From NCBI GenBank assembly GCA_021731165.1, contig JAKFXY010000026.1:1-35650 (forward strand): DNA of 35,650 nucleotides. Reading direction: 5' to 3'. The DNA is from Acidobacteriota bacterium. Lineage in GTDB: Bacteria > Acidobacteriota > Vicinamibacteria > Vicinamibacterales > UBA2999. The notes below the pieces were generated by a model. The model did no database searches, was not told where the DNA came from, and saw only the letters and a program-made list of their open reading frames with translations. Below, in pieces: positions 4,574-35,650 of this stretch. The translations under genes and the position numbers were made by a program. Numbering within the stretch: position 1 is the stretch's first letter; every line of letters begins with the position of its first letter.

Positions 4574-4668
4574 AGGTAGGCGGACCTGAAGGTCCGCCTC
4601 TACGTCGTCTCGTAGACGTACGGTTGTAGACGTACGGGTGTAGAGGCCGACCGTTCGGTCGGCCTGAA
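4571..4668. repeat. Mosaic of two palindromes and a 14-bp tandem repeat
   Basis: Three elements lie between the convergent aminotransferase and gcvP genes. The first is a hairpin with 10-bp arms (4578-4587 and 4590-4599), AGGCGGACCT/AGGTCCGCCT, the same core as the element at 1993-2041. The second is a 14-bp tandem repeat, GTAGACGTACGGTT (4612-4625) and GTAGACGTACGGGT (4626-4639), with a partial third unit. The third is a hairpin with 10-bp arms, AGGCCGACCG (4644-4653) and CGGTCGGCCT (4656-4665). The hairpins could act as transcript ends for both genes; the shared GTAGA prefix suggests one repeat family. Confidence 0.85.
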
Positions 4669-4669
4669 T

Positions 4670-18095: not shown

Positions 18096-18137
18096 AAGCG
18101 TCCACGACACGCCCGCCGACGATTCTCCGTGAGTCCC

Positions 18138-19007: not shown

Positions 19008-20998
19008 ACGTCGTCCACGCGCGTCATGGTCCGCCCGTCCTGTCCCTCGGGCTAGGCATCCTTGCGTTGGCGGCGGTGACCCTCCTGCTCGCGCGTCCCG
19101 TGTCGCACGTGCTGTCCGGTCCGGCCGCGCCCGCTGGATACGACGTCGAACGGATGATCCTGGTATACGCAACCTTGCCGCGCCTTGCGATCGCTCTCCT
19201 GTGCGGTGCCGGACTCGCCGCCTCAGGAGCCATTCTCCAGCAGGTCCTCAGGAATCCCCTCGCCTCGCCAACGACGCTCGGCATCGACGCCGGCGCACGG
19301 CTCGCCATCACGATGGCGACACTCTTCACGCCGTCGCTGCTTGGACTCGGCCGTGACATGGTGGCGCTGCTGGGCAGCGCCGCCTCGACGCTGCTCGTGT
19401 TCATACTCGTTCGGCGCCGTGGATTCTCGGCGCTCTCGATCATCCTGGCCGGCCTCGTCGTCAGCCTCTACTGTGGCGCACTGTCGGCCCTCCTCGTGCT
19501 CGTCAAGGACCGCGTGCTCGCGAGCCTGTTCATCTGGGGCAGCGGCTCACTCAGTCAGCAGAGCTGGGAGCCGAGTACGGCCCTGGCCTGGCGGCTGGGG
19601 ATCGTGGCGTTGCCGCTCCTCTTCCTCCTGCGTCCGCTGTCGCTCCTCGATCTCGGCGACGACAGCGTCCGCTCCCTCGGCCTATCCGTCACCCGGCTGC
19701 GCCTGACAGCCATCGCCATCGCCGCCGCACTCTCCGCATTCGTCACGAGTGCCGTCGGCGTCATCGGCTTCATCGGGCTCGTCGCGCCGATCATCGCGCG
19801 ACTCTCGGGCGCGCGGCGGTTCGGCGAGCGCCTCTTGTGGTCAACGATCATCGGTGCGCTGTTGCTCCTCCTGACCGACGCGACGCTGCAGATTCTCGCC
19901 GGTGTGTCTTCCGAGTTCGTGCCCACCGGCGCCGTCACGGCCGTGCTCGGATCTCCGCTCCTCCTCCTCCTCCTGCCGAGGCTGAACACCGCCGCGCCGC
20001 CGACGTCGTTCGCACCTGCGGGACGTGGGACGGCGACGACCCTGCCGCGCGTGCCTGCGCTGGCCGCGGTGGCGGTCTTTGTGCTGCTGGTCACTCTCAC
20101 CGTCCTCGTGGGCCGTAGTCCAACCGGAGCGTGGCAGATCGTCTCGATCGATCAATGGGACCAGGTGATGATCTGGCGATTGCCACGAATCGTGGCAGCC
20201 GCGGCGGCCGGCGCGCTGCTGGGCGTGGCCGGCCTCATCCTCCAGCGGTTGACCAACAACGAAATGGCGAGCCCGGAGGTACTCGGCGTAAGCGCGGGTG
20301 CGATCCTTGCGGTCGCGGTGTCCCTCTTCATGTTCGGGAGCCTCGCGCCCGTGAGCGAGAGTGTCGTGGCCGCGGTCGGCGGTGTCGTCGTCCTCGCGGC
20401 CATCCTTGCCTTCGGCAGCCGCTCCAGCTTCGCACCCGAGCGGGTGTTGCTGGCGGGCATCGCACTCAACGCGCTCATTGACGCCGTCGTCGGCATCATG
20501 TCGGCGACCGGAGACCCGCGTGCGATTCTCCTTCTTGGCTGGATGAGTGGATCGACAGGCGGCACGACAGCGGGCGATGCGGCGCAGGCGGGCATGGCGG
20601 CCGCGGTCCTCGTCGCGGTGAGCCTCCTCGCCGTCCGCTGGCTCGCCGTCCTGCCTCTCGGCGGGCCGCAGGCACGGGCACTTGGCGTCCCGCTCGCGCG
20701 CTCGCGCTTCCTGCTGCTGCTCCTGGCCGCGGTATTGACGGCGGCCGCGACACCCGTGATCGGCCCCTTGACGTTCGTCGGCCTCATGGCTCCGCACATC
20801 GTGCTCGCCATGGGAGTCAGACAGCCATTGCCTGCGCTCCTGGGCGCGGCGGCCGCCGGCGCCGGCGTGATGGCGGTGGCAGACTGGCTCGCGCGCACGG
20901 CGGCCTTCCCTCTTCAGTTGCCAACCGGCCTCGTCGCCGCGATGGTTGGAGCGCCCTTTCTGATGGTGCTCCTCAATCGCCGGAGCACATTCCCATGA
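19004..20998 (+). CDS. fhuB: Fused double permease of Fe-siderophore ABC transporter (FhuB-like)
   Basis: The 664-residue inner-membrane protein contains two FecCD-family permease halves in one chain, as in E. coli FhuB (660 residues), whereas most iron-siderophore systems use two separate subunits. The first half includes LPRLAIALLCGAGLAASGAILQQVLRNPLASPTTLGID and VGVIGFIGLVAPIIARL; the second repeats WRLPRIVAAAAAGALLGVAGLILQRLTNNEMASPEVLGVSAGA and TPVIGPLTFVGLMAPHIV. About 18-20 hydrophobic segments are evident. The GTG start at 19004 overlaps the fhuD stop (GTGA); a longer frame starts inside fhuD and is rejected. The stop overlaps the fhuC start (ATGA), so D, B and C are tightly coupled. 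Confidence 0.93.
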   Translation: MNVVHARHGPPVLSLGLGILALAAVTLLLARPVSHVLSGPAAPAGYDVERMILVYATLPRLAIALLCGAGLAASGAILQQVLRNPLASPTTLGIDAGARLAITMATLFTPSLLGLGRDMVALLGSAASTLLVFILVRRRGFSALSIILAGLVVSLYCGALSALLVLVKDRVLASLFIWGSGSLSQQSWEPSTALAWRLGIVALPLLFLLRPLSLLDLGDDSVRSLGLSVTRLRLTAIAIAAALSAFVTSAVGVIGFIGLVAPIIARLSGARRFGERLLWSTIIGALLLLLTDATLQILAGVSSEFVPTGAVTAVLGSPLLLLLLPRLNTAAPPTSFAPAGRGTATTLPRVPALAAVAVFVLLVTLTVLVGRSPTGAWQIVSIDQWDQVMIWRLPRIVAAAAAGALLGVAGLILQRLTNNEMASPEVLGVSAGAILAVAVSLFMFGSLAPVSESVVAAVGGVVVLAAILAFGSRSSFAPERVLLAGIALNALIDAVVGIMSATGDPRAILLLGWMSGSTGGTTAGDAAQAGMAAAVLVAVSLLAVRWLAVLPLGGPQARALGVPLARSRFLLLLLAAVLTAAATPVIGPLTFVGLMAPHIVLAMGVRQPLPALLGAAAAGAGVMAVADWLARTAAFPLQLPTGLVAAMVGAPFLMVLLNRRSTFP

Positions 20999-21798
20999 TT
21001 GCTGAATCAGAAGGTCACGTCATGGCGCTCGAGGGTGTCACCGTCGAGGTGTCCGGCAATATTCTGCTCGAGCCATTGACCATGGCGTTTCCTGACAGCG
21101 GGATCGTGGGGCTGGTCGGCCAGAACGGGTCCGGGAAATCCACGCTGCTGAGAGTGCTTTCGCGCCAACTGGCGCCGACGCACGGCACGATCCGGTTCGG
21201 TGGCAAGCCACTGAAGTCCTGGGGTGAGCGCGACTTCGCCCGCAAGGTTGCCTACCTGCCGCAACACACCCCGCTGGCCGCCGGCCTGAAGGTCCGTGAG
21301 CTCGTCGCACTTGGCCGCTATCCGTGGCACGGCGCGCTCGGCCTCTTCCGGAGTGTCGATCGGGAGAAGGTGGACGAGGCCCTGACGCTCACGTCAACCG
21401 ACGTCTTCGCCGACCGCCTCGTTGACACGCTCTCCGGCGGTGAGCGGCAACGCGTCTGGCTCGCCATGCTCATCGCGCAGGACGCCAGGCTGCTGCTGCT
21501 CGACGAACCGATCTCGGCCCTCGACGTCGCCCACCAACTCGAGGTCTTGGCGCTCGTGCGCCGTCTCAGCCAGGACAAGGGCATCGCCGTCGTGGTCGTC
21601 ATCCACGAGATCAACCTGGCGGCGCGCTTCTGCGACGAGATCGTCGCCCTCAAGAGCGGGCGGCTCGTCGCTCATGGCCCACCCGACGAGTTCATGACGG
21701 CCAGGCGGCTCGAAGAGATCTACGACGTCAACATGGGCGTCTTTCCACATCCCGATACTGGCGAATCCATCGCCTTCGTCCGGACGCGGGATCGCTGA
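20995..21798 (+). CDS. fhuC: Fe-siderophore ABC transporter ATPase (FhuC-like)
   Basis: This cytosolic ATPase powers import through FhuB. The 267 residues hold a complete ABC domain: Walker A GQNGSGKST (42-50), Q-loop in AYLPQHTPLAAGLKVRELVALGRYPWHG (the ALGRYPW segment is typical of FecE/FhuC/BtuD ATPases), signature LSGGERQR (about 145-152), Walker B LLLLDEPISALD and the switch histidine in VVVIHEIN. The start overlaps the fhuB stop by 4 bp. An internal ATG (residue 10) would remove a non-conserved leader but leaves the domain intact. It converges on the Rieske oxygenase gene with a 12-bp gap. No TonB-dependent outer-membrane receptor is in the window. Confidence 0.95.
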   Translation: MIAESEGHVMALEGVTVEVSGNILLEPLTMAFPDSGIVGLVGQNGSGKSTLLRVLSRQLAPTHGTIRFGGKPLKSWGERDFARKVAYLPQHTPLAAGLKVRELVALGRYPWHGALGLFRSVDREKVDEALTLTSTDVFADRLVDTLSGGERQRVWLAMLIAQDARLLLLDEPISALDVAHQLEVLALVRRLSQDKGIAVVVVIHEINLAARFCDEIVALKSGRLVAHGPPDEFMTARRLEEIYDVNMGVFPHPDTGESIAFVRTRDR

Positions 21799-21810: not shown

Positions 21811-23022
21811 CTAGAGGGGAACGCCAATCGCCCTGGCGATGTGGCGGTGCAGGGACTGGAGCGCAAGCTCGTTGCGACCGTAGACAACCGTGAAGCCCGC
21901 GGGCGCACTGACGAGGTTCGCATAGCCATCGACGGCGACGCGGTAGTCTTCCCGCGTAACGTCACTCTCCGCGTCGTCCTGGGCAAACTCGCCGGCACGG
22001 TCTCCATCCGCACGAACGCCGCGCAAGGCGTAGACCTCAATGCGGCAGGACATCGTGCCTGGCGTCTGGCCTGGAAAGATTCTGAACATCCGCACGAAGG
22101 CACCACCGGGCCCGCCCGATCCGACGACAACAACGGTATTGGGGAAGAGAAAGTGGACCCCGCCATAGTCGGCTTCCGGCCATTCGCTTTCGGGCAACCC
22201 GACCAGTGCCTTGACGCGTCTGTCCGGAAAATTGATCCGCCAGTGCGGCCCGAAATCATCGAACACGGCGACATTGCCATAGTGGCTGACACCGATCGTG
22301 GAGGCATGCAATGTGGCGAAGTGGTAGCCCTCGCCGTATGTGTCGAGGGCACATTTCCAGTTGCAGTCAGCGGCGAGCGAGCTCGATCTGATCGGCGCCG
22401 CGTCAGCCAGCTCGAGCTGCGCCAGCTCGGGAGCGAATGCGCCAAGGTACGCCGGAATGTCGAGTTCGTCCGACCCCGCCGCCGCCCGCACGAAGACGAT
22501 GCCGTTCCACTCCGCCACGGGCACCTGAATGAGATTGCGCCGGCTCATATCGATGCCCTCGAAGCCCTGCCGGCCCGGCACCCCGACAAGAGAGCCATCG
22601 AGCTCGAAGGTCCAGGCGTGGAACGGGCACGTCATCCGGCCACGACGCTCGCAGGTCCCATCCGCGCCGGCGCGGACGAGCTTCGTGCCGCGATGCGTGC
22701 ACATGTTGAGGAAGGCACGAAGGACGCCGTCCCTACCCCGCACAATGACGATGGACTGTCCGAACTCCTCGAACAGCAAGCTGTCGCCCGGCCTCGGGAC
22801 AGCCCGTGACAGGCCGGCAACCAGGGGGACCTTGAGGAAGATCTCGCGTCTCTCCAGCTCCGCTCGCGCGGGATCCGTGTAGGCGGCCGGATCGTTCTCG
22901 AGGGGGCCCGACGCGAAATCGGTCGTCCCGCCTGCCGCGACATGCGCCACCATTCGGCGTTGGATGGCCCGCGCGACTCGCCGGCGCCGTTCGGCGCTAT
23001 CGGCCGGTGTGATGTCGTTCAT
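21811..23022 (-). CDS. Rieske non-haem iron oxygenase, alpha subunit type
   Basis: The 403-residue product has a Rieske [2Fe-2S] domain (about 60-180) with ligands Cys108-x-His110 and Cys132-x2-His135, and a catalytic SRPBCC-type domain (about 200-400) with mononuclear iron ligands His234 and His239 in DTYGEGYHFATLHAST. The spacing between the two Rieske ligand pairs is 21 residues, longer than the usual 15-17, and includes an extra Cys124. Such enzymes hydroxylate, dehydrogenate or cyclise using electrons from a separate reductase, none of which is encoded nearby. ATG 23022 is chosen because AAGGA lies six bases upstream; an in-frame ATG at 23043 and a frame reaching 24360 lack that support. 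It diverges from the P450 pair and is a likely tailoring enzyme of the NRPS product. Confidence 0.9.
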   Translation of the reverse strand: MNDITPADSAERRRRVARAIQRRMVAHVAAGGTTDFASGPLENDPAAYTDPARAELERREIFLKVPLVAGLSRAVPRPGDSLLFEEFGQSIVIVRGRDGVLRAFLNMCTHRGTKLVRAGADGTCERRGRMTCPFHAWTFELDGSLVGVPGRQGFEGIDMSRRNLIQVPVAEWNGIVFVRAAAGSDELDIPAYLGAFAPELAQLELADAAPIRSSSLAADCNWKCALDTYGEGYHFATLHASTIGVSHYGNVAVFDDFGPHWRINFPDRRVKALVGLPESEWPEADYGGVHFLFPNTVVVVGSGGPGGAFVRMFRIFPGQTPGTMSCRIEVYALRGVRADGDRAGEFAQDDAESDVTREDYRVAVDGYANLVSAPAGFTVVYGRNELALQSLHRHIARAIGVPL

Positions 23023-23133
23023 GAACTGTCCTTCTGCCGTCATGACGAGGGACTCATGCGGGTGGGTCCAGAAAACTATATCGTTGTTCGCGCGCCGGCC
23101 CGGATTTCGCCAGAGCGCGTGGTCGGATCCACA

Positions 23134-24381
23134 ATGTTGCGAAACTCCATGACGCGTTCCGCGGCCGTCCCGTCGCATGTTCCTCCCGAGTGCGTGGTCG
23201 ATGTCGATCTCTACCGGATGCCTGGCGCCGAACAGGACCTCCATTTTCCATGGAAGCAACTGCAGGATTCCTCGCCCCGAGGTCTCGTCTGGACGCCGCA
23301 TAACGGCGGCCACTGGATCGTCACCCGGGGACGAGACATCGCGCGCATCTACGCCGACCACGAAAACTTTTCCTCGCACATCACCATCGTGCCGCGGCAA
23401 TGGGGCGAGCGGTTCCCGCTGCGGCCCACGACGCTCGATCCTCCCGAGCATCGCCCGTTCCGGCGACGGCTCAATGCCGCCCTCTCCCCGGCGGTGGTCC
23501 GCTCCGCGCAGCCACGGATCCGGAAGCTCGCCATCGAGGCGATCGAGCGGATACGAATGCGCGGTCGATGTGAATTCGTCTCCGAGTTTGCCGAGCAGCT
23601 CCCGCTTGGCGTCTTCCTGCATCTTGCCGATCTTCCCGTGGATGGCGCGACCGGGCTTCCTGGCTATGCGGAGGATCCAATCCGGGCCGACGGCTCGACG
23701 ACGGACGTCCCGATCATGGACAGGTTTGCCGGCTATCTGCGCCCCCATGTCATCGAGCGGCAGCGGCATCCCGGCGATGACCTGATCAGTCGATTGGTCG
23801 CCGGCGCGATGGACGATCGCGAGCTCACCGAAGACGAGGCGGTGGAGATCTCCACGGCCGTGCTGACCGGCGGCCTCGACACGATCGTGTCCTCCCTTGG
23901 CCTGATGATGGCCTTCCTCGCTCGCAACCCCGCGCACCGCCGCCGCCTGATCGCCGAACCGGCGACGATCCGGCCGGCCGTTGCCGAGATGCTGCGCCGG
24001 TTTCCCATCATGACCAAGGCGCGGCTCGTGACCCGAGACCAGGACATCGAGGGTGTGACGGTAAAGGCCGGCGAGATGATCGTGTTGCCGCCGCTGCACG
24101 GCCTGGACGACCACGAGTTCGACGACCCTCTGACGGTCGACTTCGATCGGCCGCCGGCACCGAATTCGACCTTCGGCAATGGTGTGCATCGCTGTCCAGG
24201 CGCGCTTCTCTCCCAGGCGGAGCTGGAGATCACGCTCGACGAGTGGCTCGCGCGGATTCCCGAGTTCGAGATCGATCCGGTTCGACCGCCGACGATGAAG
24301 GGCGGCGTCCTTGGCGCGCTCCTCACACTCGAGCTGCGGTGGGAGCCCATGGCGGCACACTCCCCTCGCTCGACAGCGTAG
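23134..24381 (+). CDS. Cytochrome P450 (first of tandem pair)
   Basis: The protein is a soluble bacterial-type P450 of about 415 residues. It has the PPEHRPFRRRLNAALSP segment, an I-helix TGGLDTIVSS retaining the acid-threonine pair, ExxR as EMLR and the haem-ligand loop FGNGVHRCPGALL with Cys354. In the I-helix the residue after the catalytic Thr is Ile rather than the more usual Thr/Ser. The 5' end is uncertain: ATGs at 23134 and 23149 fit homology (VPPECVVDVDLYRMPG), while ATG 23056 has an AGGGA ribosome-binding-like site but adds 26 unfamiliar residues. The gene ends 9 bp before the second P450, and the two are surely co-transcribed. No ferredoxin or reductase gene is in the window. Confidence 0.92.
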   Translation: MLRNSMTRSAAVPSHVPPECVVDVDLYRMPGAEQDLHFPWKQLQDSSPRGLVWTPHNGGHWIVTRGRDIARIYADHENFSSHITIVPRQWGERFPLRPTTLDPPEHRPFRRRLNAALSPAVVRSAQPRIRKLAIEAIERIRMRGRCEFVSEFAEQLPLGVFLHLADLPVDGATGLPGYAEDPIRADGSTTDVPIMDRFAGYLRPHVIERQRHPGDDLISRLVAGAMDDRELTEDEAVEISTAVLTGGLDTIVSSLGLMMAFLARNPAHRRRLIAEPATIRPAVAEMLRRFPIMTKARLVTRDQDIEGVTVKAGEMIVLPPLHGLDDHEFDDPLTVDFDRPPAPNSTFGNGVHRCPGALLSQAELEITLDEWLARIPEFEIDPVRPPTMKGGVLGALLTLELRWEPMAAHSPRSTA

Positions 24382-24390
24382 GGAACCTGA

Positions 24391-25641
24391 GTGCCAGATT
24401 CACACCTCCAGACACGCGCGACCCGCGAAGCGGAAGACACTCCCATTGCCGCTCTGGACGTAAGCCGAGTCGATCGTTTTCAAGCCAACACCCATTGGCC
24501 ATGCTTCACCCGGCTGCGCCGGGAAGAGCCGGTGCACTTCTGCCCCGAGAGTGTGCATGGGGCGTATTGGTCCGTCACCCGCCTTGACGACATCCTCGCC
24601 GTGGAGACGAACCATCGCCAGTTCTCATCGGAACGGAACGTGATCATCGGAGACGTCCCCGCCACCTTCGACGCGACGCGTGCATTTGCGACGGCCGACC
24701 CGCCGGAGCACACGCGCGAGCGCAAGGCCGTCACGCCCGCGATGTCGCCACAGCGAGTGGCGACCCTCGAGGCACGGACCAGAGCCAATATCGGCGCGGT
24801 GCTCGACGGATTGCCACTGGACGAGACCTTCGATTGGGTGGAGCGTGTGTCGGTTGAGCTCACCACCCAGATGGTGGCGATGCTCTTCGACTTTCCCTGG
24901 GAGGAGCGGAGGCTGCTGCCCTACTGGTCAGAGGTACTGGTGACAACGCCGCAGGTCGGTGCGATCACGACGACAGCGGTGGAGCGCGACGCGATCGTCA
25001 ACGAGTATCGCTCCAGGATTCTGGAGATGTGGCGCGCGCGCGCCGGCGAGTCGCCGGGCGACGACATCATCTCGGCCCTCGCTCACAACCCGGACACCGC
25101 GGGAATGATCGAGGACCCGTCGCATCTCATCGGAACGGTCTCGCTCGTGGCAGGTGCCAATGAAGCGTCGCGGGGCGCCCTGTCCGGAAGCATCGTCGCG
25201 TTCAATCAGTTCCCTGGAGAGTGGGAGAGATTGCGGGCCGACCCTTCTCTCGCCTCGAATGCCGCTGCCGAGATTGTCCGCTGGCAGACACCAATTTCCC
25301 ACATGCGGCGGACCGCGGTGGAGGACGTCGAGTTCCGGGGCCGACTGATCCGCAGAGGCGACCGTGTGGTGATGTGGTACTGCTCAGGCAATCGCGATGA
25401 GGCCTATTTCGAGGACGGCGATGCCTTGCGGATCGCGCGTCCGAACGCGCGCCGGCATGTGGCGTTCGGCGGCGGCATCCATCGCTGCTTGGGCAGCCAT
25501 GTCGCCGAGATGCAGCTTCGCGTCCTGCTGGAAGAGATCCTCAAGCGCTTCACGCTCGTCGAATTGGCGGCCGAGCCGAGGCGCAAGGCGTCAAACTTCT
25601 CCGCCGGCTTTGACCAGGTGCTGGTGCGGATTCCGTCGTGA
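24391..25641 (+). CDS. Cytochrome P450 (second of tandem pair) with altered I-helix
   Basis: The 416-residue product is a class I-type bacterial P450. DPPEHTRERKAVTPAMSPQRV (103-123) is the usual C-helix region, E294-x-x-R297 is present, and the haem loop is FGGGIHRCLGSHVA with Cys366. The I-helix reads LVAGANEASRGAL (252-264), where relatives have GGNETTR: the conserved Thr that guides oxygen activation is Ala259, followed by Ser260. This suggests substrate-assisted or otherwise unusual oxygen chemistry. The start is GTG 24391, with AGGGA seven bases upstream and only 9 bp after the first P450. It converges with the CmcJ-like gene. Sequence outside the I-helix is divergent from the first P450, so this is not a recent tandem duplicate. 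Confidence 0.92.
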   Translation: MPDSHLQTRATREAEDTPIAALDVSRVDRFQANTHWPCFTRLRREEPVHFCPESVHGAYWSVTRLDDILAVETNHRQFSSERNVIIGDVPATFDATRAFATADPPEHTRERKAVTPAMSPQRVATLEARTRANIGAVLDGLPLDETFDWVERVSVELTTQMVAMLFDFPWEERRLLPYWSEVLVTTPQVGAITTTAVERDAIVNEYRSRILEMWRARAGESPGDDIISALAHNPDTAGMIEDPSHLIGTVSLVAGANEASRGALSGSIVAFNQFPGEWERLRADPSLASNAAAEIVRWQTPISHMRRTAVEDVEFRGRLIRRGDRVVMWYCSGNRDEAYFEDGDALRIARPNARRHVAFGGGIHRCLGSHVAEMQLRVLLEEILKRFTLVELAAEPRRKASNFSAGFDQVLVRIPS

Positions 25642-25680
25642 ACCGACGATGAGCCGGCCCTCCTTGTTGAAGTGAGCCGC

Positions 25681-26511
25681 CTATCCGTCAAAGAAGGCAA
25701 TCGCGCGTTGGTCCATGCTTTCGCGCGGCGGGGCGTCGGGCGGGCAACCCGGGTCGTCGAAGGCCGCGTGGGGCACGCTGGTCGCGCGGCCTCGATCGGA
25801 ATCAAAGCCCTTGAACACCAGCAATTCGTCGCGGGTCATGTTCGAGAAATAGCACCAGCGGTGACTCGGGTCGTAGCGGAACATGCTGTTCTCGAAACTG
25901 AACGCCTGCTCGCCCTCCGGATCGACCACGCAATCGGAGCACACCTGGTCGTGCGGTCCAACGCTGCGCGCGTCGCACACGGCGAGCGGCGTGTCCTGCG
26001 GTGGATCCGACAGGACCCGCCACAACGTATAGATGGCAAAGCGCCGGCCGAGGCGCTCCTTCGCCTCCTCACGCGGCAACATCCGCTCGACCCAGAAGCT
26101 GGACCCGGCCGGGTTGGGGCTGAAGTCGCAGTGGGCGAACCGCCCTGGAACCGTCGTTCCGTCCTTGCCGAAGCCGGGCGAGCGTTCGCTGCGGCGGATG
26201 ACACCGCCGGTAAACGCCACCACCTTCGCCGCTCCGGTCAGCCTTCTCACCAGCTCCTCGAGCTCGCGGAGATAGATGTCGCGCACCAGCGCGGGATCGA
26301 AGAAATCCCCCACCGCGCTCCGGTGCGGCACGAGGGCAAAGCCCTCGCGGTCGAGCGAAAACGAGTCCGAGGCCGACCGTACATCCTCGACCCGCACGGC
26401 GCGCGCCTCGAGAGGTAGATTGTCCAGGTCCTTCCTGCGACCGTGGTAGATCGGCTTGCCCTGGCAGGGCCCGAGGTACGTAATCGTCGTCTCCAGGATT
26501 CGCCTTGTCAT
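25681..26511 (-). CDS. CmcJ/NvfI-family Fe(II)/2-oxoglutarate oxygenase
   Basis: The 276-residue product matches the CmcJ/NvfI family by pattern. Members include the CmcJ component of cephamycin methoxylation and fungal endoperoxide- or hydroxyl-forming enzymes. The N-terminus ETTITYLGP is typical. A candidate metal triad is His127-x-Asp129 (GRFAHCDFSP) and His248 in ATSVPHAAFDDP, with Arg242 nearby for 2-oxoglutarate binding. WRVLSDPPQDTPLAVCDARSV and WCYFSNMTRDELLVFKGFDSD are also family-like. I prefer ATG 26511, next to GGAGGAG on the minus strand; two upstream ATGs at 26523 and 26535 lack a ribosome binding site. It diverges from the NRPS gene across 63 bp, so co-regulation is likely. Reaction and substrate are unknown. 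Confidence 0.82.
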   Translation of the reverse strand: MTRRILETTITYLGPCQGKPIYHGRRKDLDNLPLEARAVRVEDVRSASDSFSLDREGFALVPHRSAVGDFFDPALVRDIYLRELEELVRRLTGAAKVVAFTGGVIRRSERSPGFGKDGTTVPGRFAHCDFSPNPAGSSFWVERMLPREEAKERLGRRFAIYTLWRVLSDPPQDTPLAVCDARSVGPHDQVCSDCVVDPEGEQAFSFENSMFRYDPSHRWCYFSNMTRDELLVFKGFDSDRGRATSVPHAAFDDPGCPPDAPPRESMDQRAIAFFDG

Positions 26512-26574
26512 GCTCCTCCGCATTGTGGGAGGCATGAAATACTACCGTGACGGGCCTTTGGGCGGGGGACGGAG

Positions 26575-29500
26575 ATGGACGAGAGCGAGCCGCTCCTTGC
26601 GGCACCGGCTACGGACGAGCCGACAGGCAGAGGCGCCGACGTCCCGAGCGACGCGGTGCGCGCTCGCTCCGTGCCGCCGCACTCATCTCGGGTTCAGCCG
26701 TCACAGGAGCGCCGCCAGTTCGGGCACGACTTCGACCTCACAGCCGCACGCGTTCCCGAGACGACGCTCGTCGGCTTCTTCGAGCGACAGGTCGCGCGAA
26801 CGCCAACGAGCCTCGCGCTCGTCACTGACCACGAAGCACTGACTTACGCCGCGCTCGACGCACGCGCGAACCAACTCGCCTGGAGGCTCATTGCCGACGG
26901 TATCGGACCGGAGGATCTCGTCGCGATCTATCTGGACCCTTCGCCGGACATGCTCGTCGCGCTCCTCGCCGCTCTCAAGGCCGGCGCCGCGTACGTGCCG
27001 CTGGACACGAGGCATCCGGTCCAGCGCGTGGCCTTCATACTCGACGACACCACGCCCAGGCGGATCCTGACGAGCATCGACCTCAGCGCGCGTCTTCCGA
27101 ATGTCGCGCGCCGCCTCGAGCTCGTCCTTGACGCCCCGGACGTTGCCACGGAGCTCGCCGGCTTCACGGCATCCGCTCCGACCGACGCCGATCGCGTCAT
27201 GCCGCTGCGGCCCCAACACCTCGCATACGTCATGTGCACGTCGGGCAGCACCGGAACGCCCAAGGGTGTCGCCGTCACGAACGCCGGAGTCAGCAACGCC
27301 ATTCATGCACGTGTCGCGTTCTACGGCGAGGAGATCAAGGCGCTCGGTCTTTGGTCATCCATATCGTTCGATATCGCCGTCGCGCAGATCTTCTGGGCCT
27401 GGTCATGTGGGGCGGCGTTGGTTCTTCCCCCGGCTCGCGCGGAAGACACTCCCGACGCCCGGTTCGAGCGGGAACTGCAGCAGGGCATCACGCATCTGAT
27501 GCTGCCGGCAGCGCTCTACGCCCATCTCCTGGCGGCGCGGCACGGGCGCGACGCGCACGCACTGCGCGCGGTCGTTGTCGGAGGGAATGCGCTGCAGGCG
27601 CAGACGGTCAGACAGCATGGTGACATCTTCGGAGACGTCAGCCTGTTCAACGAATATGGCGTGACGGAGGCGTCCATCTGGAGCACGGTCTGGCGGTGCG
27701 GCGCCGGCTCTGACGGCGACACCTCGCCGATTGGCGCGCCAATCGCGAACACGCGCGTCTACGTGCTCGACGCGTCGCTGCGGCCGTGTCCCGTGGGAGT
27801 CGTGGGCGAGTTGTACATCGGCGGCGCTGGTCTCGCGCGCGGCTACTGGGCCAGGCCGGGGCTGACGGCTGAGCGATTCGTCGCCAGTCCCTTCGGGTGC
27901 GAGCCGGGTGAGCGGCTCTATCGTACGGGCGACCTGGGGGCCACTCGTGAAGATGGCGCGCTGATCTTCCATGGCCGCGTCGATCAGCAAGTCAAGATCC
28001 GCGGCTTCCGTATCGAGCCCGGCGAAATCGAGACGGCCCTGCTCCGCGAACCCGCGCTCGCCCAGGCGGCGGTCGTCGCGCGCGACGACGTCGCCGACGA
28101 TCCGCGCCTCGTGGCCTATCTCGTCCCTCACAGGGACGCGACGCATGCGTCTGCACCGCTCGGTCTCCACTCTCTGCGCCAGCGCCTCGCCGCGTCTCTG
28201 CCGGACTACATGGTGCCGGCGGCCTTCGTCGTGCTCGACGCGTTGCCGCTCACCTCCAACGGCAAGCTCGATCGCCAGGCGCTGCCCGCGCCTCAAGGTT
28301 CGGGCCTGGCTGCCGACTATGTCGCGCCGGGCACGCCCGACGAGATCGTGCTGTGTGAGCTTGTCGCGGCATTGCTCGGGATTACGCGGGCAGGCCTCGC
28401 CGATCACTTCTTTCATCTGGGCGGCCACTCGTTGCTGGCCACGCGCCTGGCCGCGCGGATCCGCGTCCGGTTCGGCCGCGAGCTGCCGATCCGCACGATC
28501 TTCGATCGACCCGTGCTCGGCGACCTTGCCAAGGCACTGGACGCGCTCCCCAAGGCTGGTCCACTGTTGGTGCCGCAGCCACGGCCCGCCGTGCTGCCGA
28601 TGTCATTCGCGCAGACACGGCTTTGGTTCCTGCACAAGCTCGAGGGCGCGAGCCCGGCGTATCACATCCCCGTGGCCGTTCGCCTGGCCGGCCCACTTGA
28701 CAGGGCGGCCCTCGCCCTGGCGATCGAGGATGTGTGCCGCCGCCATGAGAGCCTCCGCACCCTGCTGGTTGAAGGCGACATGGGACCGGAGCAGCGCATC
28801 CTCCCGCCGTCCGCGGTCTCCGAGCCACTGCCAACGGTCACAAGCAGCATCCACACCATCGAGGACGACCTCGCGGCGGCGTCAGCGCGCGGATTTGACC
28901 TCACCACTGAACCCCCGTTGCGCGCCACGCTGTTCCGACTCGGCCCTGACGATCACGCGCTCCTGCTGCTCCTTCATCACAGCGCCGCGGACGGCTGGTC
29001 GATCGCGCCGCTCCTCGACGATCTGGCCAGCGCCTATGCCGCGAGAGTGATGGGCGCCGCGCCCGCTTTCCCCGCGCTGCCGATTCAATACGCCGACTAC
29101 ACCCTCTGGCAGCGCGCGCTGCTCGGCCGCGAGGACGACGGGGCCAGTCCACTCGCCCGTCAGATCGCGTACTGGACGAGGCAGCTTGCCGGCGTGCCCG
29201 TCGAATTGCCGCTGCCCACGGACCGGTCTCGACCCCAGACCCCAAGCTTCGCCGGTGGTGTCGTCGAGATCGCGTTGCAGCCGGCGTTGCACGCGCAGCT
29301 CCAGGACATGGCTCGTGCCCACGGCGCCACACTCTTCATGCTCCTGCAGGCGGCGCTTGCAGCGCTGCTGACCAGGCTTGGCGCCGGCACGGACATCGCG
29401 ATTGGCTCCCCTATCGCCGGCCGGACCGACACCGCGCTCGATCGCCTCGTCGGCTTCTTCGTGAACACGTTGGTGCTGCGCACCGACACCAGCGGCAACC

Positions 29501-32500
29501 CGACGTTTCTCGAGTTGCTCGCACGCGCCCGCGCCACCTGCCTGGAGGCGTACTCTCATCAGGATCTCCCTTTCGAACGCGTGGTCGAGCTGCTCGACCC
29601 GCCTCGCGTGGTTGGCCGGCAGCCGTTGTTCCAGACCATGCTCGTCCTTCAGCCCACGACCCAGCCGCAACTGGCGCTGCCGGGTCTGCGGGCAGTCGCG
29701 CTCCCGCCTCGCGACCGCACCACCAAGTTCGATCTGGTGTTCACCTTCACGGAGACGCAGGACGCGGCCGGCCGGACCGCCGGACTGCTTGGTGAGCTCG
29801 AGTACAGCATCGACCTCTTCGATCGCCGTTCCGCCTCGCGCCTCGCCGAGCGGCTCACCCGTCTGCTGGAACAGGTTGCGGCTGATCCCTCCGTGCCCGT
29901 GCATCGACTCGAGATCCTGGCCCCCCTCGAGCGCCAACGACTCGTCCACGATTCTGGCGCCACCGCCCAGCGCGGCCCCGAGGCGACACTCGCCGACCGA
30001 TTCGAGCGGCAGGTCGCACAGGCGCCGAACCGCGAAGCCTTGATCGTCGAAGACGCGGCGCTGACCTACGCCGTGCTCGACGCGCGTGCCAATCAGCTCG
30101 CCTGGCGGCTCCTCGCCGAGGGCATCGGACCCGAGGACTTCGTCGCAATCTGCCTGGAGCGCTCGTTCGAGATGGTCGTCGCTATTCTGGCGACTCTCAA
30201 AACCGGCGCCGCCTATGTCCCGCTCGACCCAGACACACCTGCCGCGCGTCTCGCGTTCATGCTGGCCGACGCTCGACCCCGGCGGCTCCTGACGACAACC
30301 AGGCTCGCCGCGCGGTTTCCGGTCGCGACACCAGCCCTCCGCCTCGACGACCCGGCGGTCGTGTCGGATCTCGCCCGCCTCCCTGTCGCCGCACCGGGCG
30401 ACGCCGATCGCCCCACGGCCCTGCAACCGGCACACCCCGCGTACCTGATCTACACCTCGGGCAGCACGGGCCGTCCCAAAGGTGTCGTGATCACTCAGCG
30501 AAATGTCGTCCGGCTGTTCGACGTGACGAGGCGTTCGTTCCGCTTCGACGAGAACGACACCTGGACGATGTTTCACTCGTACGGTTTCGACTTCTCGGTG
30601 TGGGAGCTCTGGGGCGCATTGCTCCACGGTGGGCGTCTGGTCATCGTGCCCAAGGACGTCGCCAGGTCCGCCGAAGCGTTTCGAGCCCTTCTCGTCCGCC
30701 ACGCCGTAACGGTGCTCAACCAAACACCTTCGGCCTTCTACCGTTTGACACAGGCAGACGAGGAGGCGGGCGAAGCGGCGGAGAGTCTTGCGCTCCGCAC
30801 GGTCGTCTTCGGCGGTGAGGCACTCGATCTTCGCCGATTGGATCGCTGGTACACGCGTCATGCCGAGAGTCGTCCACGGCTCGTGAACATGTATGGCATT
30901 ACGGAGACCACCGTCCACGTCACCTACATGCCGCTCGACCGCGAGCTTTCGGCCTCGAGCGCCGGCAGCCCGATCGGCGTCGGGCTGTCCGACCTGCGTG
31001 TGTACGTGCTCGACGCGGGGTTGCAGCCGTGCCCGGTTGGCGTCTTCGGAGAGGTGTATGTGGCCGGCGCCGGTCTCGCGCGCGGTTACTGGGACCGGCC
31101 CGGGCTGACCGCCGAACGGTTTGTCGCCAATCCTTTTGCGAACGAGCCGGGCGAGCGGCTTTATCGCTCGGGCGATCTTGCCGCGTGGCGGCACGATGGC
31201 TCTCTAACCTTTCGTGGCCGCGCCGACCAGCAGGTCAAAATCCGCGGCTTCCGGATCGAACCCGGCGAGATCGAAACCGTCTTGCTGCGCGAGCCCGCCA
31301 TCGCCCAGACGGCAGTCGTCGCCCGCGAGGATCTGACTGGCGACCAGAGCCTCGTTGCCTACCTCGTGCCCCGGACGGATCCATCAGGAGAGGCTGGAGC
31401 CATCGATCTCCTGGCCCTGCGCGCGCGCCTCGCCGCGGTATTACCGGACTACATGGTGCCGGCGGCGTTCGTCGTCCTGGACGCGCTGCCGCTGACGCCC
31501 AACGGGAAGCTGGATCGCGCGGCGTTGCCCGCACCTGAAGGGTCCGGCCTGGCCACCGGCTATGTGGCACCGGCGACGCCAGACGAGATCGTGCTCTGCG
31601 AGCTGGTTGCCTCGCTGCTCGGCGTGGCGCGAGTCGGGCTCGCCGATCACTTCTTCCATGTCGGCGGCCACTCATTGTTGGCCACCCGCCTGGCCGCGCA
31701 GATCCGGCATCGACTCGGGCGTGAGCTGCCGATCCGCGCGATCTTCGACACGCCGGTGCTGGGGGATCTGGCGCGCGCGCTCCGCACGCTCCCGAAGGCC
31801 GGCCAGCCGCTGGGGCCGCAACCCAGGCCCGCGGTGCTGCCGCTGTCCTTCGCGCAAGCACGATTGTGGTTTCTCCACCAGCTCGAAGGCGCGAGCTCGC
31901 TGTACCAAGTCCCGGTCGCGGTCCAACTGACCGGCGCGCTCGACGTCCCGGCGCTGGCCCGAGCGCTGGACGATGTGCGGGCGCGCCACGAGAGTTTGCG
32001 CACGCTGCTCGTCGACGACGACGATGAGCCGGAGCAGCGCGTGCTGCCAGCCGACTCGCTCCCCACGCTGCTGCAGATTGTGACGAGTACTGCCGGTGCC
32101 GTGGACGACGAGCTCGAAGTGGCAGCCGCGCGCGGCTTCGATCTCGCGAAGGAAGTCCCATTTCGCGCCACGTTGTTCCAGCTTGGGCCCGACGAGTACG
32201 CGCTGCTGCTGCTCCTCCATCACAGCGCCGCGGATGGCTGGTCGATCGCGCCGCTGCTCGACGACCTCGCGACCGCCTATGCCGCGCGGGTGACGGGGAC
32301 GGCGCCGGCCTTCCCGCCGCTGCCGGTTCAGTACGCCGACTACACCCTCTGGCAGCGTGCCTTGCTCGGCCGCGAAGAGGACCCGGCCAGTCCGATCGCC
32401 ACGCAGATCGCCTACTGGACCACGCAGCTCGCCGCGCTGCCCGTGGAGCTGGCGCTGCCCACGGATCGGCCGCGGCCGCGGACGCCGAGCTATGCGGGCG

Positions 32501-35500
32501 GCGTCGTCCAGATTGCACTGCCGCCCGCGTTGCAGACGCAGCTGCGGGAACTGGCCCGCGCGCACGGCGCCACGCTCTTCATGCTGCTGCAGGCGGCGGT
32601 TGCGACGTTGCTCGCCAAGCACGGCGCGGGCACGGACATTCCCATTGGCGCCCCCATTGCCGGCCGGACCGAAGCCGCACTCGATTCGCTCGTCGGCTTC
32701 TTCGTCAATACGCTCGTGCTGCGCACCGACACCAGCGGCGACCCGACGTTTCTCGAGCTGCTCGCGCGCGCCCGCGCCACTTGTCTCGAGGCCTATGCGC
32801 GCCAGGATCTGCCGTTCGAGCGCCTGGTCGAGCTGCTCGACCCGCCGCGCGCGGTTGGCCGCCAGCCGCTCTTCCAGACCATGCTCGTCCTGCAGCCGAC
32901 GGCGCTGCCGGAACTGCGGCTCCCGGAGGTCACCGCGCGTCCGCTCGCGCCCATCCTCCGCACCACCAAGTTCGACCTGTCGTTCACCTTCGCCGAGGGG
33001 GTGGCGTCACCCGGCCAGCCTGCCGGCCTCACGGGCGCGCTCGAGTACAGCGCCGATCTCTTCGATCGCGCCTCCGCCGCGCGCCTCGCCGCACGCCTGA
33101 CGCGCCTGCTGGACCAGATTGCCGCCGACCCGTCGATGCCGCTGCATCGGCTCGACCTCCTCACCCCCGACGAGCGCCGCCAGGTCGTGCACGACTTCAA
33201 CGCCACGGCCGCGCCGCTCCCCACCGCGACGCTGATCGATCGGTTCGAGCGCCAGGTCGCACAAACGCCGGACCAGCCCGCGCTCGTCGCGGCCGATGGC
33301 GGACGGCTCACCTACGCCGCGCTGAACGCACGCGCCAACCAGCTCGCGTGGCGGCTGCTCGCCGACGGCATCGGGCCCGAAGACCGCGTCGCCATCTGTC
33401 TCGAGCGCTCGCCCGCGCTGATCGTGGCCGTCCTGGCGACACTCAAGGCCGGCGCGGCGTTTGTGCCGCTCGATCCCGACGCGCCTGTCGCCCGCCTCGC
33501 GTTCTTGCTCGCGGATGCCACGCCCGCGCGGCTCCTGACGACCAGCGGCCTCGCCGCGCGGCTCCCCGACGTCGCGTCCGGCCTCGCCATCTGCCTCGAT
33601 GCGCCGGCGGTCATGACGGATCTCGCGGGCTTCCCGGTCGTGTCCCCGACCGACGCCGATCGCGTCACGCCGCTGCGACCGCAGCATCCGGCGTACGTCC
33701 TCTACACCTCGGGCAGCACGGGGCAGCCGAAGGGCGTCGCGATCGCGCAGCAGAGCCTCGCCCACTACATCGCGCTCGTCGGCGACCGCCTCGGGCCCCA
33801 CGCGGCGCGTATGCCGCTCTTCACGTCGATGGCCTTCGACCTGACGCTGACAACGCTCTTCGCGCCGCTCTGCAGCGGGGGCCAGATCGAGATCGTCGCC
33901 ACCACCCATCCCGCCGAGGCCCTCGCCGCAGTCTTTGGACCTGGCGCGACGGCGACCGCCGTCAAGCTCACGCCCTCGCACCTGGCGCTCCTGGCGACGC
34001 AGCCTGTCACCCCCTCCGCCATCGCCATCGCCATTGTCGGCGGCGAAGCACTCACCAGTGCCCAGGTGGCGACGCTCGTCGCGCACTGCCCCGCGATTCG
34101 CATCGTCAACGAGTACGGCCCGACGGAGACCACCGTCGGGGCCACGGCTGGCGCGGTCACCACGGAGGATCTCCACATCGGGCGGCCCTATCCCAACACG
34201 CGCGTGTATGTGCTCGACGCGGCGCTGCAGCCGTGTCCGGTGGGCGTGACGGGCGAGTTGTACCTCGCGGGCGTGGGCCTGGCCCGTGGCTACTGGAACC
34301 GGCCGGCGCTGACGGCCGATCGCTTCGTCGCCCATCCGTTCGCGCTGGGGTCGGGCGAGCGTCTCTATCGCAGCGGTGACCGCGCCGCGTGGCGCGCCGA
34401 CGGCACGCTCCTCTTCCATGGCCGCGGCGACCAACAGGTCAAGATCCGCGGCTTCCGGATCGAGCCCGGCGAAATCGAAGCCGCGCTCCTCCGCGAGCCC
34501 GCCATCGCGCAAGCGGCGGTGCTCGCCCGCGTGGACCACGCCGGCGACCCGCGCCTCGTCGCGTACCTCGTGCCGCACGCGGCGGCGCGCGCCGCGGACG
34601 CCTCAGCAGAGGCAGCGGCCAGGGTGACCCGTGCCCGTCAGGCCGAGCACGCAGGGCCGGGCACGCACCCACCGGACGCGACCCCGGCGCTCGATCTCCA
34701 GGCCATCCGCACACGCCTCACCGCGCAGCTGCCGGCGTACATGGTGCCGGCGGCGTTCGTGGTCCTCGACGCGCTGCCGCTGACGCCCCACGGCAAGCTC
34801 GATCGCGCGGCGCTCCCCGCCCCCGAAGGCGCGGGCCTCGCCGCGGGCTACGTGGCGCCGACCACGCCCGAGGAGATCGTGCTTTGCGAGGTGGTGGCCG
34901 CACTCCTCGGCCTTGCACGCGTCGGCGTCGCCGACAATTTCTTCCATCTCGGCGGCCACTCACTGCTCGCCACGCGTCTGGCCGCGCAGGTCCGCGCCCG
35001 CCTCGGCCGCGAGCTGCCCCTCCGCACGATCTTCGACACGCCGGTGATCGGAGAGCTGGCGCAGGCCCTTCGAGCCTCCAACCCGCTCGTCGACGAGGCA
35101 CCACCGCTCGTCGCCGATCCCGAGGCGGCGTTCGCGCCGTTTCCCCTGACGCCTGTGCAGGAGGCCTACTGGCTCGGACGCCAGCGCCTGGTCGCCCTGA
35201 GCGACGTGGCCTGTCACGTCTATGTCGAGCTGCGCCTGCGCCAGCTCGATGTCGCCCGCCTCACGGACGCGTGGCGCGCGGTCATCGATCGGCATCCCAT
35301 GTTGCGCGCGGTCATGGCGCCCGACGGCACCCAGCGCCTCCTCGCGGAGGTGCCGCCCTTCGTCATTCCGTGGAGCGACCACCGCGACGCCGCCGACGCC
35401 GAGGCCGCCGCCGGTGCGGTCCGCGACGCGATGTCGCATCAAGTGCTGCCGTACGATCGCTGGCCGCTCTTCGACATCCGCGTCACGCGGGTCGCGGCGA

Positions 35501-35650
35501 CAGACTGGCGGCTGCACCTCAGTCTCGATGCGCTCCTCCTCGACGGCGAGAGCAACAACCGATTGCTCCAGGAAGTCTTCGACCGGTACCACGGGCGAAC
35601 CGTGCCCGAGTCAGCGCCCACCACCGCGCTGACCTTCCGCGACTACGTGC
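26575..35650 (+). CDS. Multimodular nonribosomal peptide synthetase (3' end outside window)
   Basis: A single frame without stops runs from ATG 26575 to the window edge: at least 3025 codons. GGGGGA at 26564-26569 provides the ribosome binding site. Domain order is A1-T1 / C1-A2-T2 / C2-A3-T3 / Cy. There is no N-terminal condensation domain, so module 1 starts the chain. Carrier serines are Ser619, Ser1700 and Ser2796, each in GGHSLLATRLA. C1 and C2 have intact HHSAADG (801-807 and 1882-1888). The fourth condensation-type domain begins FPLTPVQEAYWLGR and carries D2985-x4-D2990-x2-S2993, the heterocyclization signature. No epimerization or methyltransferase domain is seen. Pocket residues predict X-Thr-Asn. 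The 49-residue N-terminal leader is low in complexity. MbtH and PPTase genes upstream are the expected partners. Confidence 0.97.
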   Translation, partial: MDESEPLLAAPATDEPTGRGADVPSDAVRARSVPPHSSRVQPSQERRQFGHDFDLTAARVPETTLVGFFERQVARTPTSLALVTDHEALTYAALDARANQLAWRLIADGIGPEDLVAIYLDPSPDMLVALLAALKAGAAYVPLDTRHPVQRVAFILDDTTPRRILTSIDLSARLPNVARRLELVLDAPDVATELAGFTASAPTDADRVMPLRPQHLAYVMCTSGSTGTPKGVAVTNAGVSNAIHARVAFYGEEIKALGLWSSISFDIAVAQIFWAWSCGAALVLPPARAEDTPDARFERELQQGITHLMLPAALYAHLLAARHGRDAHALRAVVVGGNALQAQTVRQHGDIFGDVSLFNEYGVTEASIWSTVWRCGAGSDGDTSPIGAPIANTRVYVLDASLRPCPVGVVGELYIGGAGLARGYWARPGLTAERFVASPFGCEPGERLYRTGDLGATREDGALIFHGRVDQQVKIRGFRIEPGEIETALLREPALAQAAVVARDDVADDPRLVAYLVPHRDATHASAPLGLHSLRQRLAASLPDYMVPAAFVVLDALPLTSNGKLDRQALPAPQGSGLAADYVAPGTPDEIVLCELVAALLGITRAGLADHFFHLGGHSLLATRLAARIRVRFGRELPIRTIFDRPVLGDLAKALDALPKAGPLLVPQPRPAVLPMSFAQTRLWFLHKLEGASPAYHIPVAVRLAGPLDRAALALAIEDVCRRHESLRTLLVEGDMGPEQRILPPSAVSEPLPTVTSSIHTIEDDLAAASARGFDLTTEPPLRATLFRLGPDDHALLLLLHHSAADGWSIAPLLDDLASAYAARVMGAAPAFPALPIQYADYTLWQRALLGREDDGASPLARQIAYWTRQLAGVPVELPLPTDRSRPQTPSFAGGVVEIALQPALHAQLQDMARAHGATLFMLLQAALAALLTRLGAGTDIAIGSPIAGRTDTALDRLVGFFVNTLVLRTDTSGNPTFLELLARARATCLEAYSHQDLPFERVVELLDPPRVVGRQPLFQTMLVLQPTTQPQLALPGLRAVALPPRDRTTKFDLVFTFTETQDAAGRTAGLLGELEYSIDLFDRRSASRLAERLTRLLEQVAADPSVPVHRLEILAPLERQRLVHDSGATAQRGPEATLADRFERQVAQAPNREALIVEDAALTYAVLDARANQLAWRLLAEGIGPEDFVAICLERSFEMVVAILATLKTGAAYVPLDPDTPAARLAFMLADARPRRLLTTTRLAARFPVATPALRLDDPAVVSDLARLPVAAPGDADRPTALQPAHPAYLIYTSGSTGRPKGVVITQRNVVRLFDVTRRSFRFDENDTWTMFHSYGFDFSVWELWGALLHGGRLVIVPKDVARSAEAFRALLVRHAVTVLNQTPSAFYRLTQADEEAGEAAESLALRTVVFGGEALDLRRLDRWYTRHAESRPRLVNMYGITETTVHVTYMPLDRELSASSAGSPIGVGLSDLRVYVLDAGLQPCPVGVFGEVYVAGAGLARGYWDRPGLTAERFVANPFANEPGERLYRSGDLAAWRHDGSLTFRGRADQQVKIRGFRIEPGEIETVLLREPAIAQTAVVAREDLTGDQSLVAYLVPRTDPSGEAGAIDLLALRARLAAVLPDYMVPAAFVVLDALPLTPNGKLDRAALPAPEGSGLATGYVAPATPDEIVLCELVASLLGVARVGLADHFFHVGGHSLLATRLAAQIRHRLGRELPIRAIFDTPVLGDLARALRTLPKAGQPLGPQPRPAVLPLSFAQARLWFLHQLEGASSLYQVPVAVQLTGALDVPALARALDDVRARHESLRTLLVDDDDEPEQRVLPADSLPTLLQIVTSTAGAVDDELEVAAARGFDLAKEVPFRATLFQLGPDEYALLLLLHHSAADGWSIAPLLDDLATAYAARVTGTAPAFPPLPVQYADYTLWQRALLGREEDPASPIATQIAYWTTQLAALPVELALPTDRPRPRTPSYAGGVVQIALPPALQTQLRELARAHGATLFMLLQAAVATLLAKHGAGTDIPIGAPIAGRTEAALDSLVGFFVNTLVLRTDTSGDPTFLELLARARATCLEAYARQDLPFERLVELLDPPRAVGRQPLFQTMLVLQPTALPELRLPEVTARPLAPILRTTKFDLSFTFAEGVASPGQPAGLTGALEYSADLFDRASAARLAARLTRLLDQIAADPSMPLHRLDLLTPDERRQVVHDFNATAAPLPTATLIDRFERQVAQTPDQPALVAADGGRLTYAALNARANQLAWRLLADGIGPEDRVAICLERSPALIVAVLATLKAGAAFVPLDPDAPVARLAFLLADATPARLLTTSGLAARLPDVASGLAICLDAPAVMTDLAGFPVVSPTDADRVTPLRPQHPAYVLYTSGSTGQPKGVAIAQQSLAHYIALVGDRLGPHAARMPLFTSMAFDLTLTTLFAPLCSGGQIEIVATTHPAEALAAVFGPGATATAVKLTPSHLALLATQPVTPSAIAIAIVGGEALTSAQVATLVAHCPAIRIVNEYGPTETTVGATAGAVTTEDLHIGRPYPNTRVYVLDAALQPCPVGVTGELYLAGVGLARGYWNRPALTADRFVAHPFALGSGERLYRSGDRAAWRADGTLLFHGRGDQQVKIRGFRIEPGEIEAALLREPAIAQAAVLARVDHAGDPRLVAYLVPHAAARAADASAEAAARVTRARQAEHAGPGTHPPDATPALDLQAIRTRLTAQLPAYMVPAAFVVLDALPLTPHGKLDRAALPAPEGAGLAAGYVAPTTPEEIVLCEVVAALLGLARVGVADNFFHLGGHSLLATRLAAQVRARLGRELPLRTIFDTPVIGELAQALRASNPLVDEAPPLVADPEAAFAPFPLTPVQEAYWLGRQRLVALSDVACHVYVELRLRQLDVARLTDAWRAVIDRHPMLRAVMAPDGTQRLLAEVPPFVIPWSDHRDAADAEAAAGAVRDAMSHQVLPYDRWPLFDIRVTRVAATDWRLHLSLDALLLDGESNNRLLQEVFDRYHGRTVPESAPTTALTFRDYV
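26755..28540 (+). other. NRPS module 1: A1-T1 (initiation)
   Basis: A1 spans about residues 61-575 and T1 about 583-655. Core motifs: LTYAALDARANQLAWRL, the P-loop-like CTSGSTGTPKG, GELYIGGAGLARGYWARP, GERLYRTGDL, and NGKLDRQALP with the catalytic lysine. The A5 region reads NEYGVTEASIW, not the usual YGPTET. Aligned by eye to GrsA-Phe, the pocket residues are D-I-A-M-V-G-E-I-W-K. I do not recognise this as a known code and leave the substrate open. T1 Ser619 is at 28429-28431. Confidence 0.85.
28594..31770 (+). other. NRPS module 2: C1-A2-T2, predicted Thr
   Basis: C1 (about residues 674-1118) begins LPMSFAQTRLWFLHKLEG and has HHSAADGWS, typical of an L-accepting condensation domain. A2 (about 1137-1650) has IYTSGSTGRPKG, and its pocket residues, aligned by eye to GrsA-Phe, are D-F-W-N-V-G-M-V-H-K. 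This differs at one position from the well-known threonine code DFWNIGMVHK, so Thr is a confident prediction. T2 Ser1700 is at 31672-31674. Confidence 0.88.
31837..35060 (+). other. NRPS module 3: C2-A3-T3, predicted Asn
   Basis: C2 (about residues 1755-2199) is highly similar to C1 and has an intact HHSAADGWS. A3 (about 2218-2750) has LYTSGSTGQPKG and NEYGPTETTVG; pocket residues are D-L-T-K-I-G-E-V-G-K, the asparagine-type code (aspartate codes usually have His where this has Glu). An Ala/Arg-rich insert of roughly 15 net residues lies near 34579-34686, between two late A-domain motifs. T3 Ser2796 is at 34960-34962. Confidence 0.86.
35131..35650 (+). other. NRPS heterocyclization (Cy) domain, N-terminal part
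   Basis: About 173 residues are visible. The opening FPLTPVQEAYWLGR is the Cy1-type motif found in PchE, HMWP2 and related siderophore synthetases. HPMLRAV follows, and the active-site segment LSLDALLLDGES fits D-x4-D-x2-S (Asp at 35527 and 35542, Ser at 35551) where condensation domains have HHxxxDG. The following module, outside the window, should load Cys, Ser or Thr and cyclise it onto the Asn carbonyl. Confidence 0.88.

Follow-up and report, generated by a model that had tools for sequence, protein, structure and literature searches.

Gene content of the window and the metallophore question

The window, meaning the whole stretch of DNA that was analysed, is the entire contig C24 (35,650 b) of a 3.0 Mb assembly in 161 contigs with 86.67% completeness and a contamination estimate of 0.75%. 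It carries a Fhu-like importer and several oxygenase genes and ends within a nonribosomal peptide synthetase (NRPS) ORF. A homologous cluster is found in G003, a genome of another genus in the same family, and identities to it are included in the following list.

15828..16616, minus strand: Sfp-type phosphopantetheinyl transferase (PF01648, PF22624)
18129..19007, plus strand: FhuD-like periplasmic binding protein, 76% identical in G003 (PF01497, 9.5e-21; NF007864 207 bits, below the cut-off of 252)
18875..20998, plus strand: FhuB-like fused FecCD permease with a probable start at about 19004, 68% identical in G003 (PF01032 twice; NF007866 722 bits, cut-off 554)
20995..21798, plus strand: FhuC-like ABC ATPase, 64% identical in G003 (profile scans)
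21811..22860 (approximate end), minus strand: Rieske oxygenase, 64% identical in G003 (PF00355/PF00848)
22942..24381, plus strand: cytochrome P450, 70% identical in G003 (profile scan)
24391..25641, plus strand: cytochrome P450, SolI-like, 68% identical in G003 (PF00067; NF041802 404.6 bits, below the cut-off of 850)
25681..26535, minus strand: CmcJ/NvfI-family oxygenase, divergent from the NRPS (NF041278 271 bits, cut-off 80)
26575..35649, plus strand: NRPS ORF, A-T-C-A-T-C-A-T-Cy..., 3025 aa, open at the contig end (ORF and profile scans)
26779..27849, plus strand: A1 adenylation core of the loading module, code DIAMVGEIW (PF00501, GrsA-anchored code)
28591..29943, plus strand: C1 condensation domain, HHSAADG (PF00668, C clade)
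30001..31092, plus strand: A2 adenylation core, code DFWNVGMVH, Thr (PF00501, GrsA-anchored code)
31834..33186, plus strand: C2 condensation domain, HHSAADG (PF00668 314 bits, C clade)
33244..34296, plus strand: A3 adenylation core, code DLTKIGEVG, Asn, donor module of Cy (PF00501, GrsA-anchored code)
35116..35649, plus strand: N-terminal lobe of the heterocyclization (Cy) domain, about 178 residues, cut by the contig end at 35650 (Cy PDB chains, Cy clade)
35140..35181, plus strand: Cy1-type opening motif FPLTPVQEAYWLGR (direct reading; kept in the G003 and C125 copies)
35527..35553, plus strand: DxxxxDxxS motif DALLLDGES, replacing HHxxxDG (direct reading)

The importer, the Rieske oxygenase and both P450s are collinear between the window and G003, at 64-76% identity. 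The CmcJ/NvfI-family gene also has a counterpart in G003, which was found through an overlapping plus-strand reading; the plus-strand ORF at 25672-26418 was rejected as a gene because it lies antisense to the CmcJ-like one. The Sfp-type enzyme could prime the T domains and finds no counterpart among the G003 cluster contigs examined. The adjoining JmjC/cupin gene (PF08007; 16613-17701, minus strand) likewise has no match there.

According to the transporter rule, two of PF00593, PF01032 and PF01497 within a cluster indicate a metallophore, with a precision of 93% for metallophore clusters (PMC12971057). PF01032 and PF01497 are both present at 18129-20998 and are both conserved in G003. Because most false positives of the rule are importers that are unconserved in homologous clusters (PMC12971057), the conservation of the Fhu-type importer answers the main cause of error, and its position next to the NRPS in another genus as well argues for a metallophore. 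The siderophore comparison drawn in an earlier note on this DNA is thus relevant, on account of a conserved importer that the note did not invoke. On the other hand, a TonB receptor (PF00593) was found on none of the cluster contigs C24, C125, C123 and C36, and no recognised chelator biosynthesis was found among the scanned cluster genes, so that a metallophore is a probable product and not a secure one. PF13434 was tried as a test for hydroxamates and discarded as unspecific, being positive in 12 of 14 controls.

The missing chelator pathway also leaves room for a credible, if not the expected, alternative in which the NRPS makes a bioactive peptide for secretion and the Fhu-like importer is a neighbour without a role. 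Thiazole peptides are frequently bioactive, and one of the P450s is similar to SolI, which comes from an antifungal cluster. Such a chance neighbour sits poorly with the conserved order of importer, Rieske oxygenase and P450s beside the NRPS in another genus, and with the nature of the false positives given above.

Module order and the contig break

Adenylation codes were read from an alignment anchored on GrsA (1AMU), with the segment checked against the PDB chain, and were assigned by the published consensus codes for Asn (DLTKLGEVGK), Thr (DFWNIGMVHK), Cys (DLYNLSLIWK or DLYNMSLIWK) and Tyr (DASTLAAVCK). The A1 code received no substrate assignment; in G003 it is conserved as DIAMIGEIW. Since the three codes give X, Thr and Asn in order, the donor peptide of the Cy domain is, as far as the codes tell, X-Thr-Asn, whose last residue, Asn, donates the acyl group. 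The Cy domain does follow an Asn module, as previously noted, but the donor had been written in reverse, as Asn-Thr-X. A match to PF20605 within the NRPS scored under its cut-off and was dismissed as meaningless.

The 5703 b contig C125 ends in the same Cy domain as C24, with 92% DNA identity, and the final 127 bases of both contigs are identical; an overlap of exactly 127 bases also exists between C123 and C36. From the sequence ends, the stop of C24 is a k=127 de Bruijn repeat break caused by a second, 92%-identical Asn-T-Cy copy. The window lacks the next module because C24 and C125 stop at one identical 127-base k-mer.

Across A-T in the two Asn modules, window positions 33853-35131 and C125 (L009) positions 3900-5178 are 100% identical over 1279 bases, and the modules flanking this stretch are about 86-96% alike. 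From this identity, the two Asn modules were recently duplicated, or underwent gene conversion, inside one NRPS.

C125 opens partway through an A domain of Cys type (--MSLIW, its first four code positions being lost) that carries an oxidase, followed by T-C-A(DLTKIGEVG, Asn)-T-Cy. The oxidase is SagB-type and embedded in the A domain at residues 259-424 of the C125 ORF (PF00881, 1.5e-7), and it scores 90.7 bits against TIGR03605 SagB, above the cut-off of 78.4. C123, read in reverse, has A(DLFNMSLIW, Cys) followed by T-E-C-A(DASTIAAVC, Tyr-like). In C36, an N-methyltransferase-like insert is followed by T-E-C-A(DFWNIGGIF)-T-TE, with MT and TE read from the sequence and not by profile. A homologous 6.4 kb contig, L030, runs uninterrupted in a single frame through T-Cy(58% identity)-A(DLFNLSLIW, Cys-type)-T-C-A(DASTIAAVC). 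Thus the next A domain, the reading of which had been proposed in the earlier note together with a search for an oxidase, is Cys-type in C125, in C123 and, contiguously, in L030, and one of the Cys-type domains, that of C125, contains an oxidase. Neither result that the earlier note named as refuting its reading, a place outside the Cy clade or a next A domain for an amino acid without a beta-nucleophile, was obtained, the second with the proviso that the joint at the end of C24 is itself unsequenced. The Cys-type domains of C125 and C123 are tied to C24 via the k-mer break and not by contiguous sequence. The oxidase module was sought in the G003 bin and is absent from it; that bin likewise breaks at the corresponding place.

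Several further observations concern these modules. The L030 contig is labelled Gammaproteobacteria despite its 58%-identical Cy module set, which could reflect horizontal transfer or a mis-binned contig. Module 6 (C123/C36; L010, L011) has an E domain, whereas none is found at the matching place in L030 and G003:C44, so that producers may differ in the stereochemistry of the module 6 residue. HHLAVDA stands in place of HHxxxDG in the G003 E domain (L028, G003:C44). The A8 code DFWNIGGIF (DFWSIGGVF in G003) has no substrate assignment.

The simplest linear route that uses each contig once is C24, C125, C123 and C36, an order that we infer along with catalysis, product structure and metal binding; domain class, A-domain codes, oxidase domain, k-mer break and gene conservation are shown directly. 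C125 could instead be a strain variant or belong to a separate cluster, with the C123 module directly after the C24 Cy domain and one Asn-Cy-Cys unit per assembly line. The 1279 identical bases and the links left open between the contigs would permit this, but C125 starts in its own Cys/oxidase module, distinct from that of C123, its Cy domain differs by 8% in DNA from that of C24, a single path takes in every contig once and the contamination estimate is low (0.75%), which makes such an arrangement improbable. The preferred reading therefore has two tandem Asn-Cy-Cys units in one assembly line.

Class and catalytic residues of the Cy domain

The terminal domain matches PF00668 with just 44.5 bits, compared to 314 bits for C2. 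The opening motif was read at 35140-35181. DALLLDGES occupies the place of HHxxxDG, with its first Asp at 35527-35529, its second at 35542-35544 and the Ser at 35551-35553, exactly where the earlier note had put it. In the alignment, the equivalent position holds HHSAADG in C1 and C2 upstream, DNLLLDGLS in 7JTJ and DALLMDGAS in BmdB. When the domain was searched against the PDB by phmmer, the best eight matches were all Cy chains, among them 7JTJ (1.9e-32), BmdB (3.6e-27), 6LTA (6.1e-26), HMWP2 7RY6 (1.9e-22), PchE (6.4e-22) and EpoB (4e-21), and the ninth was PvdL (5e-4). The full-length G003 domain, 69% identical to that of the window, scores 288 bits with 7JTJ and 212 with PchE, against 65 for PvdL as the best non-Cy chain.

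A maximum-likelihood tree was calculated for 48 C-family domains, eight of them PDB references and the others taken from this cluster, from G003 and L030 and from the genomes sampled. The window domain falls within a Cy clade of 30 rows that has 100/100 support and was recovered in all bootstrap trees, while the cluster's own C and E domains are placed away from it; the tree took in no interface (I) domain reference. On motifs, structural matches and the phylogeny that had been called for, the window ends in the N-terminal lobe of a genuine NRPS Cy domain, as was first supposed.

Cy domains catalyse both condensation and cyclodehydration. HMWP2-Cy2 has a Thr/Asp dyad (T1830/D1862) and the helper Q1864, and its DxxxxD aspartates are structural (PMC9547227). 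According to the alignment, the Thr and Asp that match T1830/D1862 are kept in the G003 (69%) and L030 (58%) homologues, and the D+2 helper Gln of EpoB and HMWP2 is replaced by Lys in both. BmdB likewise lacks the helper Gln at D+2. The C-terminal lobe of the window domain, with the dyad, and the following A domain were sought throughout the bin and not found; as both lie outside window and bin, we infer Cy activity and the acceptor residue. The window domain is an ordinary Cy domain that is probably active in ring formation.

It is scarcely credible that the domain belongs to the C family without cyclizing and is merely Cy-like (a hydroxylase-recruiting interface domain or a modified-C/modAA domain), as the missing HHxxxDG and the several free-standing oxygenases adjoining the NRPS might suggest, because all best PDB matches and the 100/100 clade, in a tree without an I-domain reference, are Cy, the domain fills the C-domain slot of its module and is not an extra domain, the downstream A domains code for Cys, one of them with an oxidase, and the full-length homologues retain the Thr/Asp dyad. 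An interface domain had also been suspected in C123 from two abutting C-family matches, which proved to be E followed by C.

Predicted product and relation to known systems

In the proposed reaction, the carrier protein upstream would present X-Thr-Asn as a peptidyl thioester to the Cy domain, which would condense it with the cysteinyl thioester of the next module and cyclodehydrate the product to an Asn-linked thiazoline. The A-embedded SagB-type FMN oxidase would then yield a thiazole in one of the two tandem Asn-Cy-Cys units, behind the Cy domain of either C24 or C125, and epimerisation would follow the second unit. The predicted product is X1-Thr-Asn-Cys(thiazole)-Asn-Cys(thiazoline, epimerised)-NMe-Tyr-like(D)-X8-TE, in line with the earlier suggestion of a ring at an internal peptide position. 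Judged from the sequence evidence as a whole, Cy class and formation of an Asn-Cys thiazol(in)e are together likely, a grade that does not extend to the metallophore reading.

How unusual such a donor is was surveyed with about 25 Cy domains sampled outside the window/G003/L030 family, a few of whose codes were poorly aligned. Around ten of them sit after an A-T module, with donor codes that are Cys or unassigned. An Asn donor occurs twice in the window genome as well as in G003, and in none of the other sampled Cy domains. Asn is thus uncommon as a Cy donor. Bleomycin biosynthesis offers one example of an amino-acid or peptidyl donor to Cy. Others are the Ala donor in bacillamide (PMC8795117), the thiazolinyl donor of HMWP2-Cy2 (PMC9547227) and the peptidyl-PABA donor predicted for lapcin (PMC8837603), so that the earlier view of aminoacyl or peptidyl donors as unusual in themselves was overstated. 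Cy domains as such are rare in these bacteria: at E<=1e-25 they occur in 3 of 162 Vicinamibacterales genomes, two of which carry this cluster, and at 1e-40 in 8 of 396 genomes sampled across the phylum, the window genome counted.

Cy2 of HMWP2/Irp2 from yersiniabactin biosynthesis (7JTJ) is the closest solved structure (288 bits, G003 full domain), shares DxxxxDxxS and is, with weak support (91/85), the nearest characterised neighbour in the tree. It differs in its donor, an aryl-thiazolinyl unit instead of an Asn-terminated peptide, and in its helper Gln, which is Lys in the G003 and L030 homologues. The donor of EpoB is a small acyl starter, unlike the peptidyl donor here, and the epothilone line is an NRPS-PKS hybrid. 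EpoB nevertheless shares an oxidase embedded in a Cys A domain (PMC8795117), and its structure 5T7Z scores 263 bits with the full G003 Cy domain. BmdB Cy2 with BmdC has the same A-T-Cy-A(Cys)-T order, an amino-acid donor and a thiazole made by an FMN oxidase (PMC8795117), but bacillamide has an Ala donor, one ring and an oxidase acting in trans. The soil-metagenome lapcin (lap) NRPS also places Cy after several modules, giving internal thiazoles, and also uses Asn (PMC8837603); it differs by its PABA donor residue and PABA specificity, by having Asn after the thiazoles and by a separate oxidase. The thiazol(in)e-forming reaction is most likely the known one, in an assembly line that is new and uncharacterised.

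Tentatively, the product could belong to an Acidobacteria-type metallophore family with two Asn-thiazol(in)e units, from the tandem Asn-Cy-Cys modules, as metal ligands, P450/Rieske/CmcJ-like tailoring, Fhu-type uptake and no catalogued chelating group. The predicted product, with Asn-thiazole-Asn-thiazoline, is distinctive, and two genera within a single family of uncultured soil-type bacteria share it. Should the link to the importer hold, chelator-based metallophore detection would overlook this cluster, since NRPS-derived thiazol(id)ine chelators cannot be covered by the chelator rule (PMC12971057). The cluster would also show that a Cy donor site can accept Asn, whose side chain is a polar carboxamide.
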